DNA of 26,322 bases from positions 1 through 26,322 of the IMG/VR virus record IMGVR_UViG_3300046028_000823. One strand, written 5' to 3'. Position 1 is the stretch's first letter, and each line of letters begins with the position of its first letter. Source of the stretch: a virus. The notes beneath the pieces are model-generated. The model saw nothing but the letters and a program-made list of their open reading frames with translations, did not search any database and was not told the DNA's origin. The position numbers were made by a program, and so were the translations under genes. Of the stretch, positions 11,442-17,930 are shown one piece after another.

Positions 11442-12278
11442 TCATGCAAGCAGTTTAGCCAGCGTCTTCGGCCCAGCAACACCATCAGCAGCCAGCCCGT
11501 TGGCTGTTTGCCACTTTTTCAATGCAGCCTCTGTGGCAGGGCCAAACGATCCGTCAGCTTCCAAGCCAAGTTCAGCTTGCATCCGCTTGACGTTCTCGCC
11601 CGTGGAGCCTTTTTTAAGCACACCAGCGATTGATGCCGCATTGGTAATAGGTGCGGGAACAGCCCCGCCAAGGACCGCCAGCGCAGCCTCATAGTGTTTG
11701 CGCCGATCCTCTAGGCCAATCGTCCCGCCATTGACCAGCTTGGTCATCTTTACGATGTCGTTGGCATCACAAGCTGCATTGAGGTTGCGGCTGTTCCAAT
11801 ACCAGCAAGCCGACTCTAACGCGCCTTTCTTGGTTATCACATATTCGATTACATCAATTGCCATCATGCCAATCGTCAGACCAAAGGCCGTGTAATTGTC
11901 GCGGCCTGTTAGCTGGACCACACCGCGCCCACGGAAACGATAACCATCGCCAGAGGCTGTATCACCATTACCCATGCGGCTGGCATAGATCACATTGGCA
12001 ATCTTTTCAGGCTGCTTTGCGTAGTCGGCGGCATTGCGTCCAGACTTGGAAAAATACTTGCTGAACAGCTTTTCCAGCGTTTCGGCGCGATAATTCAGGT
12101 TCTCCGACAGCACAGTGAAGTTCATGCTTTCGTGACCACATTGGGCAAAGAAACCAGCAATCCGATTTGGGGTGTTGATTTCATATTTGGGCAGGATTTC
12201 CATTGCCGCATCAGCCCATGCCGCCGCTTCTGCATTGCCATGCAACAGGTGGATGATTTTGTCTTTGGTCAGGGTCAT
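11442..12278 (-). CDS. Endolysin: GH19 chitinase-like lysozyme with peptidoglycan-binding domain
   Basis: A 278-residue endolysin. Residues about 10-205 are a GH19-type lysozyme: GFFAQCGHES at 42-51 gives catalytic Glu50, NLNYRAE is at 61-66, and the family loop GYRFRGRGVVQLTGRDNY is at 112-129. Residues about 217-278 form a Peptidoglycan-binding-1 domain (LKKGSTGENVKRMQ, then GSFGPATEAALKKWQ). It should cleave the peptidoglycan glycan chain at the end of infection. The ATG at 12278 overlaps the stop of the upstream 60-codon gene (ATGA); longer in-frame starts read through that gene and are rejected. There is no signal peptide, so export should need a holin. Confidence 0.92.
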   Translation of the reverse strand: MTLTKDKIIHLLHGNAEAAAWADAAMEILPKYEINTPNRIAGFFAQCGHESMNFTVLSENLNYRAETLEKLFSKYFSKSGRNAADYAKQPEKIANVIYASRMGNGDTASGDGYRFRGRGVVQLTGRDNYTAFGLTIGMMAIDVIEYVITKKGALESACWYWNSRNLNAACDANDIVKMTKLVNGGTIGLEDRRKHYEAALAVLGGAVPAPITNAASIAGVLKKGSTGENVKRMQAELGLEADGSFGPATEAALKKWQTANGLAADGVAGPKTLAKLLA

Positions 12279-12457
12279 GTTTTCTTCTTTCCAATGTTTT
12301 TGGCAACAGCGCCGATCACATCGGTCACATCGCCCGTGACGGCGGTTTTGATAAGCCCTTCCACTTGCGGCGGCAAATCCACCTTGTCCAGCACCGCATC
12401 CGCGATCTTGCCTTTGATCTTTTTGCCAATCAGCGCACCTACCAGTTTCCCAATCAT
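12275..12457 (-). CDS. Small basic amphipathic protein of lysis region (60 aa)
   Basis: A 60-residue Lys- and Gly-rich protein: MIGKLVGALIGKKIKGKIAD forms an amphipathic, membrane-active-looking helix, followed by VEGLIKTAVTGDVTDVIG and ending NIGKKKT. It is directly coupled to the endolysin gene downstream and the probable holin gene upstream (ATGA both sides), with AGGAG as Shine-Dalgarno. A role in lysis timing or membrane disruption is suggested by position and composition only. Confidence 0.55.
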   Translation of the reverse strand: MIGKLVGALIGKKIKGKIADAVLDKVDLPPQVEGLIKTAVTGDVTDVIGAVAKNIGKKKT

Positions 12458-12717
12458 TCTGATTTCTCCTCAACTTCGGGTTTGCGGTTGTTGCCAGCAG
12501 CCATCACGCCACCAAGTGCGCCCACGATAAAGCTGGCAATGGGTGTCAGCAGTTCAAAGAACTTGCGGTCATTCTCGCTGCTTTCACCCATCGGCTGGGT
12601 GACAAAAACCAGCGAATAGAGAATGGTGAAAATTGTTCCAGCAAGGATGACAACCAAGGCGCAGCCGATGAAATAGCGCAGCTTGGCTTCCAGTTCGTCA
12701 GGATCATTTTTAGCCAT
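12454..12717 (-). CDS. Probable holin, two membrane segments (87 aa)
   Basis: An 87-residue membrane protein with two hydrophobic segments, about 16-38 (FIGCALVVILAGTIFTILY) and 56-75 (LLTPIASFIVGALGGVMAAG), and charged N- and C-termini. This is the layout of class II holins with both ends in the cytoplasm. It lies one gene upstream of the signal-less endolysin. The ATG at 12717 has TAGGAG 7 nt upstream and overlaps the previous gene by 8 nt. Other small membrane proteins nearby could be the true holin. Confidence 0.6.
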   Translation of the reverse strand: MAKNDPDELEAKLRYFIGCALVVILAGTIFTILYSLVFVTQPMGESSENDRKFFELLTPIASFIVGALGGVMAAGNNRKPEVEEKSE

Positions 12718-12898
12718 TTGTTGCTCCTAGCAAATCTTGTGGGCATTGTTTTGTCGCCGTGCAAATCGGCGGCTGGCATTCAGGTGCAGTCCAATTTTGT
12801 GGGTCCATGCAGGGATAACGATAGAAGCCATCCTTGCTGATCACGAAGATGGCAACGATGGCACAGGCAAAGACCAGCCAAAACAGTTTTTCTTTCAT
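12710..12898 (-). CDS. Small cysteine-rich membrane-anchored protein (62 aa)
   Basis: A 62-residue protein. One membrane helix (residues about 5-20) is followed by a short outside domain with four Cys at 30, 41, 46 and 52 (FYRYPCMDPQNWTAPECQPP, then ICTATKQCP). I recall this YRYPC-x-DP-x-NW pattern from small proteins of marine phages, with no known function. The even number of Cys suggests two periplasmic disulphides. It is placed between the coiled-coil membrane protein and the holin candidate. Confidence 0.6.
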   Translation of the reverse strand: MKEKLFWLVFACAIVAIFVISKDGFYRYPCMDPQNWTAPECQPPICTATKQCPQDLLGATNG

Positions 12899-12908
12899 AT
12901 CATCATCC

Positions 12909-13409
12909 TTATTGCGCCAGTGGGTTATCTAAGGCGCGTTGCAGTTTGCCGTTTAGCCTGTCTTCCAACTCTTTCATATCTTGATCTTGCGACATTCTGA
13001 GTTGGTCGCGCCGTGTTTCAAAACGCTTTTCGGCATCGTCGATCAGCGTTCTAACCTTTTCCTCATTGGTTCTTACGGCATCTTCCGCCCGATCAACCTG
13101 TTTTTCAAGTTGGATGATGTCATCCTTTAGCCCGTTCTTGATGTCGCGGGCATAGTCCAAGGCTTCCTGCACCTTGGCATCCATCACTTCCATCTGTTGC
13201 TGATACGCGCCAAGGTCCATGCCAGCGACAGCCTCAACCTTTTGATACATGACAAAGCCGCCGTAAAGTGTGCCGCAGATGGTTGACAACATTGCCACAG
13301 CGGCAGCAATGGTTGCTGGTGTCATGCGGATGCCAAGGATAGAGAAAGCCTTATCCTTCAGGCCGTCGATCCCATCCAGTGCTTCGCCAAGGTCGCGTTC
13401 GGTTGTCAT
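12909..13409 (-). CDS. Membrane-anchored coiled-coil protein (166 aa)
   Basis: A 166-residue protein. A short N-terminal segment precedes one membrane helix (about 31-55) and then a long charged coiled coil (about 69-150, e.g. IQLEKQVDRAEDAVRTNEEK). The architecture, one membrane helix then a periplasmic coiled coil, is like that of an inner-membrane spanin, but it is longer than usual and no outer-membrane lipoprotein partner is found. Its ATG at 13409 overlaps the previous stop (ATGA). A scaffold or anchor for the exported proteins encoded upstream is another possibility. Confidence 0.55.
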   Translation of the reverse strand: MTTERDLGEALDGIDGLKDKAFSILGIRMTPATIAAAVAMLSTICGTLYGGFVMYQKVEAVAGMDLGAYQQQMEVMDAKVQEALDYARDIKNGLKDDIIQLEKQVDRAEDAVRTNEEKVRTLIDDAEKRFETRRDQLRMSQDQDMKELEDRLNGKLQRALDNPLAQ

Positions 13410-13810
13410 TGCTCAAAACTCATCTGTTCATCTTGCAATGCCTTCATCGCATCAAGTTCTTCTTGAAGTTGCTGAATTTCCAACCGCCGTTGTTGCAATT
13501 CCAAAAGATAAAGTTGGTTGCAGTCGATCCGCGATTTTGGCGCATTCAGCGGGATGACGATGCGGGCGAACAGGCCGATGTCTTTTGTCTGTGGTGATAG
13601 GTTGCTTCCACCTAAATTGTTGACGCCACCCATGACGCCCATTTCTAAGTTTGTGGAACCGCCGATAGCCATGCTGCAATCAAGTTCACCAGCACGGAAG
13701 CTGTCGCTTTGATACGTCATAGGCGATGAAGGCAACTGCAAAGCCAAAGAACTGCTGTCAGCCTGTGCTGCGCCGCCAAGCATGGCTAAGATGACAGCCA
13801 GCCGCTTCAT
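13406..13810 (-). CDS. Exported protein with C-terminal coiled coil (134 aa)
   Basis: A 134-residue protein with a clear signal peptide (MKRLAVILAMLGGAAQA, probable cleavage before DSS). The mature part has a Ser/Gly/Asn-rich strand region with two Cys (ELDCSMAIG near 45 and IDCNQLYLL near 97). A Gln/Glu/Leu-rich coiled coil (about 101-125) ends it. No family is recognised. It is coupled by 4-nt overlaps to both neighbours and is the last of five consecutive exported or membrane proteins. The coiled coil could pair with that of the 12909-13409 protein. Confidence 0.6.
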   Translation of the reverse strand: MKRLAVILAMLGGAAQADSSSLALQLPSSPMTYQSDSFRAGELDCSMAIGGSTNLEMGVMGGVNNLGGSNLSPQTKDIGLFARIVIPLNAPKSRIDCNQLYLLELQQRRLEIQQLQEELDAMKALQDEQMSFEQ

Positions 13811-14190
13811 GCCTTTTCACCATCCAGACGCGAACAGATGCGCGATGAAACGATGGCGTTATCTTCTTGCCCAGCCCGCAGCATGGATGTGGTGCAGACG
13901 TAAACCACACGCTGCACATCGGTTTGCCTAATATAGATTTCAAAGGCTTTTCTGGCCCCTGATGGAACGTGCATCACACGCTGTGCCGATGCGAAGGCAA
14001 TAGGTTGCCATTTTGCATCAAACACGCCGACAGCAAAATATTCAACATCGTCACGCGCATTAAACAGCGATAGATCAGCTTGCATGATTTCTGGCACAGA
14101 AGATGAATGCAGCTTTGGATAAGCTGGCGTCATCTCATGCGCCGCAACCGCAGTTGACATAAAGATCAACGCTGATGCCATCCGTATCAT
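13807..14190 (-). CDS. Exported protein resembling a single pilus-chaperone-type Ig domain (127 aa)
   Basis: A 127-residue protein with a signal peptide (residues 1-17, MIRMASALIFMSTAVAA). The mature part, about 110 residues, is strand-rich: ADLSLFNARDDVEYFAVGVF (38-57), then a RVMHVPSGARKAFEIYI segment (71-87) and VQRVVYVCTTSM (92-103). The order of an N-x-x-x-x strand, a VPSGA-x-K turn and edge strands resembles the N-terminal domain of PapD-like chaperones, but the similarity is weak and the second domain is missing. Cys99 and Cys119 could bond. The ATG at 14190 overlaps the upstream stop (ATGA). It is encoded directly after a pilin-like protein. Confidence 0.5.
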   Translation of the reverse strand: MIRMASALIFMSTAVAAHEMTPAYPKLHSSSVPEIMQADLSLFNARDDVEYFAVGVFDAKWQPIAFASAQRVMHVPSGARKAFEIYIRQTDVQRVVYVCTTSMLRAGQEDNAIVSSRICSRLDGEKA

Positions 14191-14681
14191 TTTGCGATGC
14201 ACTCAGCTTGAATGATGGCGCGATAGGTTCCCGCAGGAAAGGCTTTGTTGAATCCATATTCGGCGGTTGAATCGACCTTGAAGAAGGTTGTGCCAGCGGT
14301 GGTTAGGTCAAACTCAGTGGTGGCATCATATTCAACTTTGTCGGCATCATAGGCCGACATATCAGGGTCAGAGACGTTTGATACAGATGTGCCGCCTGTC
14401 CATGTGACAGTATCAATCAAGGTTGGGCTGGTTGAAAACGCTGTGGGATGCGTGATGCGGGCAATGTAATAGCCAGCCAGCGCAACATCATATCGGATGC
14501 TTGGCGTAACACCGCCATCAGCAGGGCTGGCACTCAGTTTGCTTGGCGTAGGGTTGCCATAGACGCCTGTGCGGTCGGTGCGGATGATGCACTTGGCCTG
14601 AACATTGCCTTCGATCTGGACGTTATCAGCCAGCGCGATTTGCGGCAGCAAGGCCAGTGCAATGATTGCAAGATGTTTCAT
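14187..14681 (-). CDS. Exported pilin-like / spore-coat-U-like protein (164 aa)
   Basis: A 164-residue protein with a signal peptide (MKHLAIIALALLPQIALA, cleavage before DNV). The mature protein is strand-rich, with Cys31 in an early strand (QAKCIIR) and Cys161 in the last strand (FPAGTYRAIIQAECIAK). A Cys in the first strand and a PAGTY-type last strand are typical of fimbrial and SCPU/spore-coat-U subunits. However, in classic pilins both Cys lie in the N-terminal half, so this is only resemblance. The ATG at 14681 has AAGGAC 7 nt upstream. It is 10 nt after the preceding gene and coupled to the chaperone-like gene. Confidence 0.5.
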   Translation of the reverse strand: MKHLAIIALALLPQIALADNVQIEGNVQAKCIIRTDRTGVYGNPTPSKLSASPADGGVTPSIRYDVALAGYYIARITHPTAFSTSPTLIDTVTWTGGTSVSNVSDPDMSAYDADKVEYDATTEFDLTTAGTTFFKVDSTAEYGFNKAFPAGTYRAIIQAECIAK

Positions 14682-14691
14682 GTCAACGTCC

Positions 14692-15561
14692 TTACTGATA
14701 TTGCAGATCAATCATCTGCTCATGCAGCACTTGCTGCGCTAGGCCATTCCGCAGCCCACGGCGGTTTTCTGGCAGTTTGCCATCGACCAGCATAGGTGCA
14801 TCCGCGTAAGAGCCGCCGTCTATGCTGGCGGCATAATAGGCATCCACACCAGCAGTATAACCCATCGCAGCCAGAATAGCATCCTGCGAAATGCCATTGG
14901 CTAAAGCCAGCGCATTCTTGGATGCAGCTAGGCCACGCTCTAGCCTTGCTTTGCGTTCTTTGTCATCGCTTTGATCTTCTTTGGCTGCTTCTTCGTCTTT
15001 GTATTCTTGATCAGTTTTCTGGGTTGCGATGCGGTATGCGTCATCTTCCAAGGCATCATAGCTTGCCTGTTCTTCGACAGTCACGGGCGGTGTTGGCGCA
15101 AGATAGCCATCGCATGATGGGCTAGATTGCGGGTTGGCGCATTGGTCAACACGATAGGCATAGATCACAGACGCATCCGAAATCGTGCCTTCGCCTTCGA
15201 CCTCAATTGAGCCGATGCCCCAATACTCCAATGGGATGTTAGAAACTGGAATGCCTCTGGTGATGGTGTTGCCAGCAAGGCCAGACCAATCATCTGTCTC
15301 ACGAAAAATGTAACCGCTGCCCAACGCGTTTTCGTTTTGCACATGGACCAAGGCATCTGCGGCTGGGTCCTTGCCGATGGTGTAGCGGTAGTAAACGCCA
15401 GTGACATCTAGGCCAACCACATCTGGCATGATGTTCACCATGTCCCACGTTATGCCACTGGATGCAGCGTTTCCGCTTGTGCCGTAGGTGTAGGGGTCAG
15501 AGTGCGATAAGGAGGCCCAAGACGCCAAGCAAAGCGCCAATGCCCATCTTTGTTTTACCAT
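14692..15561 (-). CDS. Exported protein with charged coiled-coil middle (289 aa)
   Basis: A 289-residue protein with a signal peptide (MVKQRWALALCLASWASLSHS, cleavage before DPY). Residues 22-140 are strand-rich and end in a Cys pair (DQCANPQSSPSCDGY, Cys131/Cys140). Residues about 150-210 are a highly charged helical coiled coil. A Gly/Ala-rich helical tail ends with QQVLHEQMIDLQYQ. No family is recognised with confidence. The ATG at 15561 has AGGGG about 7 nt upstream. Its first 65 nt, coding exactly the signal peptide, overlap the end of the upstream gene in another frame. Confidence 0.6.
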   Translation of the reverse strand: MVKQRWALALCLASWASLSHSDPYTYGTSGNAASSGITWDMVNIMPDVVGLDVTGVYYRYTIGKDPAADALVHVQNENALGSGYIFRETDDWSGLAGNTITRGIPVSNIPLEYWGIGSIEVEGEGTISDASVIYAYRVDQCANPQSSPSCDGYLAPTPPVTVEEQASYDALEDDAYRIATQKTDQEYKDEEAAKEDQSDDKERKARLERGLAASKNALALANGISQDAILAAMGYTAGVDAYYAASIDGGSYADAPMLVDGKLPENRRGLRNGLAQQVLHEQMIDLQYQ

Positions 15562-16093
15562 CAATGCGCCCCTTCTGGTTGCCTTCTGCGCGGTCTGGGT
15601 CGGCTTCCCACGCCGCCTTGGCTTCCTCGCCGATCATGCCATCGTAGGGGCATGGTGTGCCAGCATCGAGCATGGATTGGAAAACCCGTTCATCTTGGCA
15701 CATGGTTGAAACTGCGGCGACCTTCATGCCCATATCGTAAAGGGCTTTAGCGTTTTTCAGCATTTCGCAGTTCATGTCTCTGACAGTCTTGCCAGCGGAC
15801 AGGCCAAGGATTTGCGTCTGCACTGCACCAGCGATGCCAACTGTGCAGAGATCGTTTCCGTTGCCCGCGCTGAACTGTGGCGAAACCGCCGTTGGCGGGG
15901 GCGAAATCACAGTGGTGGTCATCTCGCCTGTAGTGTTCACAGAGCCGTCAGAGCCTGACCAAGTGCAGATGTAGCCTTCGGGGCATTGCACGTCAGGAAC
16001 AGTCTGTGGATGTGCGATGGCAGCGGCAAGCAAAAAGCCCAGAACAATAATGCAGATCACTATGACCTGATCTTTGTCTGGCTTCAGTTTCAT
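15497..16093 (-). CDS. Cysteine-rich periplasmic protein anchored at both ends (198 aa)
   Basis: A 198-residue protein. A hydrophobic segment (about 9-29) is followed by a Thr/Ser/Pro-rich stretch with Cys37 and Cys43. A helical domain follows with four Cys (CTVGIAG at 83, MNCEMLKNAKALYDMGMKVA with Cys109, MCQDERVFQSMLDAGTPCP with Cys132 and Cys148). A second hydrophobic helix (about 183-198) ends the protein. By memory the MCQDERVFxxMxxAGTPCPxxGxIG pattern occurs in phage proteins of unknown function. Both hydrophobic ends suggest that the central part sits in the periplasm. The start is coupled to the upstream stop (ATGA). Confidence 0.6.
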   Translation of the reverse strand: MKLKPDKDQVIVICIIVLGFLLAAAIAHPQTVPDVQCPEGYICTWSGSDGSVNTTGEMTTTVISPPPTAVSPQFSAGNGNDLCTVGIAGAVQTQILGLSAGKTVRDMNCEMLKNAKALYDMGMKVAAVSTMCQDERVFQSMLDAGTPCPYDGMIGEEAKAAWEADPDRAEGNQKGRIDGKTKMGIGALLGVLGLLIAL

Positions 16094-16323
16094 TTTCTCA
16101 GCACACCTTCGATTGTGTCCAGCTTCTCGAAGATGCGGCGGAAGTTTTCGCGCATCTCTTTGAACTCTTTATCGTGGGCTTCCTTGTTGGACTCATGCAC
16201 AGCTTGCAGCACGGCGATCTGGGTCGCGTGGGTTTGCTGGGTCCGATACATGAATAAAACGCCAGCCAATATCGGCGCGACGATCCATTGCATGGTGGCT
16301 TGGATTACATCCAGAAGTTCCAT
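16090..16323 (-). CDS. Small membrane protein with coiled-coil tail (77 aa)
   Basis: A 77-residue protein with one membrane helix (about 9-26, ATMQWIVAPILAGVLFMY) followed by a charged coiled coil to the end (HESNKEAHDKEFKEMRENFR). This layout is common among phage holin-like and XhlA-like accessory lysis proteins. It lies between the fibre-associated gene (3-nt gap) and the exported-protein block. It could be a second holin, an antiholin or an anchor for the block. Confidence 0.5.
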   Translation of the reverse strand: MELLDVIQATMQWIVAPILAGVLFMYRTQQTHATQIAVLQAVHESNKEAHDKEFKEMRENFRRIFEKLDTIEGVLRK

Positions 16324-16326
16324 GCT

Positions 16327-16644
16327 TTATGCCTCTGGATAGGGAAAGCGGGCCTTGATCTCTGCGACCTTGGCTTGCCATTCTTCAACAGTTGCTTCGC
16401 CGCGCTGGGCTTTGAAGAACAGCGGGTCGGCTTCCTTGGTATAGGCTGCTGAACGCTGGGCTTCTTGCTCTTGCTGTGACGGCGCGTAAGGCGGAGGCTC
16501 GCTGAACGTCGAGCCATCGTAAAGCCAATTCGGACCTACGCCATCTGGCAGCAAAACCCAACCCTGCTCTGCCGCAAAGTCTGCTTCTGCTAAGACAGCA
16601 TTAACGACAACGCCATCTTCGATCACGCCATAATTGCTTACCAT
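16327..16644 (-). CDS. Tail fibre-associated protein (105 aa)
   Basis: A 105-residue protein. Its N-terminal domain (NYGVIEDGVVVNAVLAEADF, then GWVLLPDGVGPNWLYDGSTF) matches the small domain seen in phage fibre-assembly or fibre-tip proteins, where G-x-x-W-x-Y-D-x-x-x-F is typical. The C-terminal half is helical (EEWQAKVAEIKARFPYPEA). It directly follows the fibre gene and overlaps its stop, with GAGG about 8 nt upstream of the ATG at 16644. It is likely a fibre chaperone or accessory. Confidence 0.6.
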   Translation of the reverse strand: MVSNYGVIEDGVVVNAVLAEADFAAEQGWVLLPDGVGPNWLYDGSTFSEPPPYAPSQQEQEAQRSAAYTKEADPLFFKAQRGEATVEEWQAKVAEIKARFPYPEA

Positions 16645-17921
16645 GTGTAAACCTCACAATATCCTGCTGCACCAGCGCCACCAGCGCCACCAGAAAAGCC
16701 CGTGCGTGTGGTCCCACCTGCACCACCACCGCCACCGGGGAATGCACCCGCACCGCCAGCGCCGCCATTTGTTGTTTGTGCTGAACCACCACCGCCGCCG
16801 CCACATCCCGCAGACGTAGCCGCGCCACCAGCCGTTGGTGCGCCAGCAGACGATGTTCCGGCAGAACCTACGCCAGTTGCAAGCCCTGACTGGCCCCCAA
16901 GCCCGCCTGCAAACAATACGTTTCCGCTGCTTTCCCACCCGCTACCGCCACCGCCACCGCCACCCAAGATAGATTGCGAACCTGTAGAGCCTAAGGTAGA
17001 AGACCCGCCTCCGCCGTAATAGCTTAGGCTACTACCGCCCACGCCAGCCAGAAGCCCTACATTCGCCGATGTACTGGATGTTATCCCTTGGGCGCTGCCA
17101 CCAGTTGAACCTCCAAATGCACCACCAGTACCACCATTAGCAGTTACAAGAGTTCCGAAGGATGTTTGTCCACCAGCAACACCTACTGTCGCAGAAGCCC
17201 CGCCAGTTCCAGCCGCACCAATCGTGACAGAAACAGTGGATGCTAGTTCACTGGCATAGAAAAACTTTTCGTAAAAAGCGCCGCCGCCGCCACCGCTACC
17301 GCCACTTTTGCTCGTAGATACAGCACCAACTGTTCCACCAGCACCGCCTCCACCCGCACCCCAAACACGCACAAGCACCAGTGATGCCCCAGATGGCTTG
17401 GTCCATGTGCCAGAGGATGTGAAGGTTTGTTTGTTGACTGCCCCGCCATTAGCCAAAACAAATGCGGTAGTCGCTAGTTGTGTCGTATTAGTGCCAACGC
17501 TTGCAGTCGGCGCAGTAGGCACACCTGTCAGCGCAGGGCCAGCCAATGCAGCCTTTGCATTAAGCTGCGTCTGGATGGCAGAGGTGACGCCCGTGACATA
17601 TCCTAGTTCAACCGCTGTAGTAGCAAGGCCAGCCAACTTGTTTATCTCAGTGCCTGTTGCCGTAACTTCAACACCGCCGACAATCGGGAAAAACTGATCA
17701 CTGGTCTGGTTCAGTTTTGCCACGCTGATCCAAGCATCGTTTGCTTCGGCGCGAATTTTCAAAATGCCGTTGGTTGAGTCATACCACCATTGGTTTGCGT
17801 AGGTGGTAGCTGGTGCAGATGCGCCACTGTTGTTCGACGCAATCGCCAGCAACGCTGCGTTGATGTCGGCCCGAACGTTCGCTGCGGTGTCATTCCCAAT
17901 CACATAGTCATGCTGTGACAT
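16638..17921 (-). CDS. Glycine-rich tail fibre / receptor-binding protein
   Basis: A 427-residue protein. The N-terminus (residues about 1-60) has the YVIGNDTAANVRADINAALL and WWYDSTNGILKIR patterns typical of phage fibre attachment modules. The middle (about 85-170) has fibre repeats such as EINKLAGL and AALAGPALTGVPTAPTASVG. From about 190 there is a TFTSSGTWTKPSG strand followed by a long Gly-rich region with many GGGG runs to the end, as in glycine-rich adhesins that bind cell-surface receptors. ATG codons at 17924 and 17921 both follow AAGGAA; I use 17921 on spacing. It should be the host-range determinant. Confidence 0.8.
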   Translation of the reverse strand: MSQHDYVIGNDTAANVRADINAALLAIASNNSGASAPATTYANQWWYDSTNGILKIRAEANDAWISVAKLNQTSDQFFPIVGGVEVTATGTEINKLAGLATTAVELGYVTGVTSAIQTQLNAKAALAGPALTGVPTAPTASVGTNTTQLATTAFVLANGGAVNKQTFTSSGTWTKPSGASLVLVRVWGAGGGGAGGTVGAVSTSKSGGSGGGGGAFYEKFFYASELASTVSVTIGAAGTGGASATVGVAGGQTSFGTLVTANGGTGGAFGGSTGGSAQGITSSTSANVGLLAGVGGSSLSYYGGGGSSTLGSTGSQSILGGGGGGGSGWESSGNVLFAGGLGGQSGLATGVGSAGTSSAGAPTAGGAATSAGCGGGGGGSAQTTNGGAGGAGAFPGGGGGAGGTTRTGFSGGAGGAGAAGYCEVYTW

Positions 17922-17930
17922 CATGTTTCC

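Follow-up and report, generated by a model that had tools for sequence, protein, structure and literature searches.

A six-gene cassette lies between tail-fibre and lysis genes

What does a tailed phage make when the genes between its tail fibre and its endolysin appear to encode exported proteins? The known roles of late phage genes lie in the virion and in lysis, and an exported multi-gene assembly with its own chaperone would be a third late product. The question is raised by a 26,322-nt viral contig, IMG/VR record IMGVR_UViG_3300046028_000823, positions 1 to 26,322 (hereafter the window, meaning this whole stretch), which may be an incomplete genome. The window phage is an aquatic, lambda-like siphovirus, with tape measure, major tail, distal tail and lambda-J-like tail proteins recognised, and likewise primase and exonuclease genes. 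An earlier note, made by a model from the DNA letters, had described a block of five consecutive genes at 13406-16093; all five open reading frames (ORFs), g1-g5, are present there, coupled or overlapping on the minus strand, and are of exported type, yet the block comprises six genes, since g6 belongs to it too. The answer we favour, though we would put it just short of an even bet, is that the phage encodes, in this cassette, a periplasmic module of chaperone and subunit that works without an usher and acts on the host envelope close to lysis. Its genes are as follows (lengths in amino acids, aa).

15497..16093, minus strand: g1, 198 aa; N-terminal membrane/signal segment, Cys-rich conserved domain (GMKVAAVSxxCQDxRVFxxMxxAGTPCP), hydrophobic C-terminal tail
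14692..15558, minus strand: g2, 288 aa; signal peptide, Cys pair, charged coil, conserved C-terminal stretch ending HEQMIDLQYQ
14187..14681, minus strand: g3, 164 aa; signal peptide and predicted beta-sandwich, pilin-like by fold, with invariant Cys31 and Cys161
13807..14190, minus strand: g4, 127 aa; signal peptide and one predicted PapD-like immunoglobulin-like (Ig) domain; ATGA overlap with g3
13406..13810, minus strand: g5, 134 aa; signal peptide, conserved domain with Cys45/Cys97, C-terminal coiled coil; phrog_37374
12909..13409, minus strand: g6, 166 aa; transmembrane segment, long coiled coil, C-terminal NPLAQ

Read along the minus strand, the order is a tail-fibre gene (16638-17924), two small genes, g1-g5, g6, three small genes (62, 87 and 60 codons) and the endolysin; the cassette thus lies near lysis genes, between these and the tail-fibre gene.

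An initial g4 search turned up 14 contigs, with an identical gene order wherever it was complete. Deep IMG/VR searches brought the confirmed relatives to 191 for g4, 198 for g3 and at least 596 for g1; 80 of each were fetched, and profiles made from them were used to locate g1-g6 in the loci. All six genes, in one order and on one strand, were found in 200 fetched loci (128 distinct by g3), which bears out the conserved co-occurrence in phage genomes that the earlier note had proposed looking for. Among the deep-search loci with enough flank, those found through g3 or g4 carried the complete set in 45/45 and 40/40 cases, and 36 of the 50 g1 loci with room had all six genes, 13 having g1, g2 and g6 only. 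The six-gene block is a rigid, conserved cassette. Between close relatives, differences in g1-g5 amount to about 0.43-0.58 at third codon positions versus 0.06-0.13 at second positions; because the order is kept in relatives and the differences are concentrated at third positions, g1-g5 are real genes. Over 62 nt (15497-15558), the end of g1 (its hydrophobic tail) and the start of g2 (its signal peptide) are read from the same DNA in different frames, and the overlap is kept in relatives, with a median of about 70 nt by longest-ORF starts.

A T4-type major capsid protein was found in 9 of 34 large carriers and in none of the other 25, many of which are fragments. Since the carriers are T4-like in part and the window phage is lambda-like, the cassette spans unrelated phage types. 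The set had been called unusual, which holds against textbook phages but not against aquatic ones, where it is common; the g1 family, to judge from its number of confirmed IMG/VR stretches, is common in aquatic viromes, yet unannotated. PHROGs lists the cassette families as of unknown function, and no description of the cassette was found in the literature searched. Prophage hosts were rejected, as only 19 contigs of metagenome-assembled genomes (MAGs) held relatives, probably as mis-binned phage DNA; the spread of g1 relatives in bacterial MAGs (L280-L298) is implausibly broad, taking in Bacteroidetes, Actinomycetota and an archaeon.

The cassette proteins carry export signals and paired cysteines

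Scored by an in-house heuristic rather than SignalP, 92-98% of the members of each of the g1-g5 families start with a strongly hydrophobic segment, in agreement with the signal peptide or membrane segment that had been noticed on all five proteins. The mature parts in the window contain 6, 2, 2, 2 and 2 Cys from g1 to g5; these even numbers, remarked on before for most of the proteins, recur in the families as two or four invariant residues, namely C31/C161 in g3, C99/C119 in g4, C45/C97 in g5, C140/C149 (alignment numbering) in g2 and four in g1. Conserved signal peptides together with Cys pairs imply export into an oxidising compartment, and the sequences therefore support the view that the g1-g5 products are probably exported from the host cytoplasm. 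Coiled coils, claimed for two of the proteins, were found in g2 (the charged coil) and g5 (at the C-terminus), and the N-terminal part of g2 is predicted from sequence to be rich in beta-like residues. The g6 protein has a membrane segment followed by a coiled coil ending in NPLAQ; proteins of pelagiphages and roseophages retain the NPL.

The predicted fold of g4 resembles periplasmic chaperones

The AlphaFold2 model of g4, built from 98 relatives, is a single Ig-like sandwich with a predicted local distance difference test (pLDDT) score of 88.9 and a predicted template modelling (pTM) score of 0.78. Searched with Foldseek against the PDB, its top 16 matches, and 33 of the 50 best, are chaperones of the chaperone-usher pathway (PapD, FimC, DraB, FaeE, SfaE, Caf1M), the best with an E-value of 1.5e-4 and a template modelling (TM) score on the query of up to 0.63. 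The invariant Cys99 lies on the predicted F strand and Cys119 on the predicted G strand. In chaperones of the FGL class, a conserved disulfide joins the F1 and G1 strands (PMC4133393), so that the Cys pair of g4 occupies a place corresponding to that in Caf1M and DraB, as far as positions in a model can tell. With the chaperones of both classes (FGL Caf1M and DraB; FGS PapD and FimC), g4 shares the Ig fold of the N-terminal domain, export, and an adjoining candidate subunit gene. Structure prediction and fold search thus agree with the proposal that the 127-residue protein resembles one PapD-like Ig domain; a PapD-like fold is supported by the model, and common descent with the chaperones is not established by sequence methods. 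Vibrio relatives of g4 end in CAKLRLYWP, resembling SRIKLYYRP of FimC, although the profile match is not significant.

The g3 model, built from 87 relatives, is a confident beta-sandwich (pLDDT 92). The top six PDB matches, and 17 of the 50 best, are pilins or pilin domains of the chaperone-usher pathway, and its best solved neighbours include the PapG pilin domain, CfaB, FimF and FimG. Two further features are shared with pilins. One is a Gly at position -14 from the C-terminus, present in 87/87 g3 members and in 18/19 K-12 pilins. The other is a hydrophobic-x-hydrophobic-x-Gly stretch ahead of the first Cys that is without secondary structure in the model, where residues 12-30, ahead of the first strand, have none. 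Earlier, this protein had been described as pilin/spore-coat-U-like; the pilin likeness holds weakly, by fold, whereas the spore-coat-U / Csu pilin profile (PF05229) was not matched. A profile match of g3 to K-12 pilins was rejected, as it lay mostly in the signal peptide and mature sequences scored within shuffles. The g3 model thus weakly suggests a pilin, as a lead and not a classification.

Homologous genes occur in cultured phages

Relatives of g5 number 184 records and lead to cultured Vibrio phages. In pVp-1, Ceto, 1.205.O, PS14A.1, D71 and K251, pilin-like and chaperone-like exported genes directly precede the g5 relative in the window's order. These g3-g4-g5 triplets, found in Vibrio phages of several types, are preceded by tail-fibre-like genes; those of pVp-1, Ceto and 1.205.O are also followed by a gene for a holin or an endolysin. 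The g3 profile scores 58 against the Vibrio gene over 129 columns (shuffled maximum 18) and the g4 profile 40 (shuffled maximum 21), while crossed controls fail; a g3 hidden Markov model also recovers the pVp-1 gene at the predicted place (E 2.2e-7). These comparisons support homology of the Vibrio triplet genes with g3 and g4. In pVp-1, the three genes belong to phrog_25895, phrog_25455 and phrog_37374; the Vibrio triplet genes are annotated only as hypothetical proteins. Unlike the window cassette, the triplets (pVp-1, Ceto, 1.205.O, PS14A.1) have no g1, g2 or g6 seen beside them, which suggests that g3-g5 can act without these genes. Because the homologous triplet sits in cultured phages, the cassette is testable by ordinary phage genetics.

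More distant triplets in another order were seen in the Vibrio jumbo phage 2.275.O, the Schizotequatrovirus 1.081.O and Klebsiella phage Eowyn, with g5 identified by test and its neighbours by eye. Scanning viral contigs with the Vibrio g3 alignment gave only four close T5-like relatives. Two further genes were noticed around the Vibrio triplets. One, a small lipoprotein-like gene (SGCTxNFxIDTDYA...; L299:7314-7472 and relatives), directly follows g5 and might anchor an assembly to the outer membrane; the other, in phage D71 (L306:9224-9661), lies some 4 kb away from the triplet and is annotated as coding for a PagP-like lipid A acylation protein, which modifies the outer membrane.

Relatives of g1 lead in turn to pelagiphages and roseophages (HTVC115P, HTVC202P, HTVC033P, CRP-207), where the g1 relative is followed by an exported or long protein and a transmembrane coiled-coil protein ending in NPL. 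This trio differs from the cassette in having no detected g3 and, in pelagiphages, a much longer and acidic g2-like partner. Phages with only g1, g2 and g6 suggest that these genes are the core and g3-g5 an addition. The pelagiphage partner (L040, L041, L042, L046) is 430-610 aa long; its middle is Glu-rich and strongly acidic, and a stretch at its C-terminus is similar to the last part of g5.

An usherless assembly line is proposed

Taking as given what was computed directly, i.e. the six-gene cassette, its exported-type N-termini, the predicted PapD-like fold of g4 and the tail-fibre-to-lysis position, we infer a chaperone-subunit relation of g4 and g3, an assembly, the topology of g6, late timing and a role at the envelope or in lysis. 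Late in infection, g1-g5 would be exported via the host Sec system, and g6 would be held in the inner membrane, its coiled coil projecting into the periplasm. As a one-domain chaperone, g4 would take g3, an incomplete Ig-like subunit, by strand complementation and pass it on to assembly with g2, g5 and g1, the product being tethered by g6. With no usher involved, the assembly would stay periplasmic or span the envelope rather than become an exported pilus. The assembly would most likely serve to condition the envelope at about the time of host lysis and phage release, a best guess made because of the position of the cassette. In its fullest form, the proposal is that aquatic tailed phages encode an usherless periplasmic assembly line, with a one-domain PapD-like chaperone, a donor-strand subunit and four partners, that builds an envelope structure at the end of infection. 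We hold this version more tentatively still, as a possibility that could well be wrong; if true, it would be a phage system of a kind not described so far, possibly a minimal relative of the chaperone-usher pathway.

The usher was considered directly. None was found, the large window proteins matching tape measure, tail fibre and primase families, in a window that may be an incomplete genome and that was searched with no usher profile. The large genes that precede the Vibrio triplets were rejected as phage-borne ushers, being signal-less and tail-fibre-like. A homologue of CsgG, the curli secretion protein, was present in 0/26 records, with control genomes positive. Ordinary fimbrial chaperone genes do occur in records named as phages (Salmonella phage S.Kent 1-2-1, Escherichia phage ECO95, Acinetobacter phage MD-2021a); these true PapD-family chaperones were set aside, as they look like host DNA.

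Several results weigh against the proposed module. For g4, no match to the Pfam pilus chaperone families was found in any of the 98 relatives, and hhalign against eight K-12 chaperones scored at chance level; it has one domain in its 127 residues where known chaperones have two, and its G-like strand (117-121) has a weak alternating hydrophobic pattern that is unconvincing as a donor strand. It is also phage-encoded, unlike the known chaperones. For g3, the fold matches are weak (best E 3.3e-3, TM about 0.3-0.5), and in a viral structure library unrelated viral proteins reach similar E-values, with nothing useful among them. It differs further from pilins in its penultimate residue, which is Ala in 87/87 members instead of the pilin Tyr, in its second invariant Cys, which at -4 lies away from the usual pilin place, and in matching no Pfam fimbrial family. 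With signal peptides removed, the cassette proteins resemble those of the chaperone-usher pathway in sequence no more than expected by chance. In pelagiphages and several jumbo phages, g1 and the g2-like and g6-like genes are retained although g3 is missing, and the chaperone-subunit pair is therefore not indispensable. Co-divergence was rejected as proof of a cassette unit, since pairwise divergence among cassette genes correlates no better than with flanking endolysins. No functional or proteomic data on the cassette were found in the literature searched. The tie of the cassette to the chaperone-usher pathway is thus one of fold only, and it falls outside the pathway by the two-domain rule, the usher and the sequence families.

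Alternative roles of the cassette

The main rival is superinfection exclusion or surface modification, in which the exported set would coat or alter the surface or the periplasm of the host, thereby shutting out further phages and keeping released virions from being wasted on dying cells. Every product is predicted to be exported, the wide range of phages that carry the cassette is what one would expect of a fitness add-on, and late expression would fit the protection of progeny after lysis. Exclusion genes, however, are usually early and single, whereas the cassette sits in the tail-fibre-to-lysis interval with six genes held together, and nothing ties it to a receptor. We consider this explanation unlikely.

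Alternatively, the products may be separate small periplasmic effectors whose Ig-like folds are a coincidence, with no chaperone, subunit or assembly. The missing sequence homology to the chaperone-usher pathway and the weak g3 fold matches speak for this, yet the six genes strictly co-occur in fixed order, one functional family dominates the fold matches of g4, and the triplet is kept across phages with different neighbours. Such independence appears improbable.

Spanin-like disruption of the outer membrane, with g6 as an i-spanin-like anchored coiled coil and g2/g5 as outer partners, would have the set replace spanins, as the earlier note had suggested. Like Rz/Rz1-type spanins, g6 combines an N-terminal membrane segment with a coiled coil, and lysis genes are nearby. 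Real spanins nevertheless coexist with the cassette in some carriers: Rz-like spanins lie within 7 kb in 14 of the 128 distinct loci, i- and o-type together in 8, a count made in compact phage late regions and with no control gene counted. The cassette also has no lipoprotein partner; a lipobox pattern occurs in 0/178 g1, 2/182 g2, 13/154 g3, 0/154 g4 and 3/144 g5 sequences, and none of the g1-g5 families has a conserved one. Spanin replacement is therefore disfavoured and, like a place in the virion, less likely than exclusion, with little probability left to either. Virion or tail-associated proteins, e.g. processed decorations joining the particle beside the tail fibres, would fit the tail-fibre genes that adjoin the cassette in the window and the triplet in Vibrio phages, but tailed virions assemble in the cytoplasm, while the conserved signal peptides and Cys pairs imply export to an oxidising compartment, and no virion proteomics of carriers was found in the literature searched.

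Lysis and other genes around the cassette

With the same 7-kb distance and the same limits on its reading, one of two recognised endolysin types was found near the cassette in 44/128 loci and a small EF-hand protein with two membrane segments in 58/128; an endolysin, a spanin or the EF-hand protein was present in 80/128. The EF-hand protein (e.g. L243:9743-10054) has no PHROG match and is possibly a calcium-sensing holin. In the window, the following genes flank the cassette.

16090..16323, minus strand: 77-aa transmembrane and coiled-coil protein, just upstream of g1
12710..12898, minus strand: 62-aa transmembrane, Cys-rich small protein, downstream of g6
12454..12717, minus strand: 87-aa membrane protein with two hydrophobic segments; holin candidate by position; phrog_25359, function unassigned
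11442..12278, minus strand: endolysin, GH19-type lysozyme with peptidoglycan (PG)-binding domain; start taken as the M of MTLTKDK; assigned from a close relative's matches and synteny

The close relative of the window endolysin matches phrog_181 (endolysin) and the Pfam families Glyco_hydro_19 and PG_binding_1. A small transmembrane coiled-coil gene similar to the 77-aa gene occupies the same place in 21/128 cassettes. The 62-aa protein has a Cys-rich tail (YRYPCMDPQNW...C..C..CP), and its relatives come after g6 in close relatives of the cassette.

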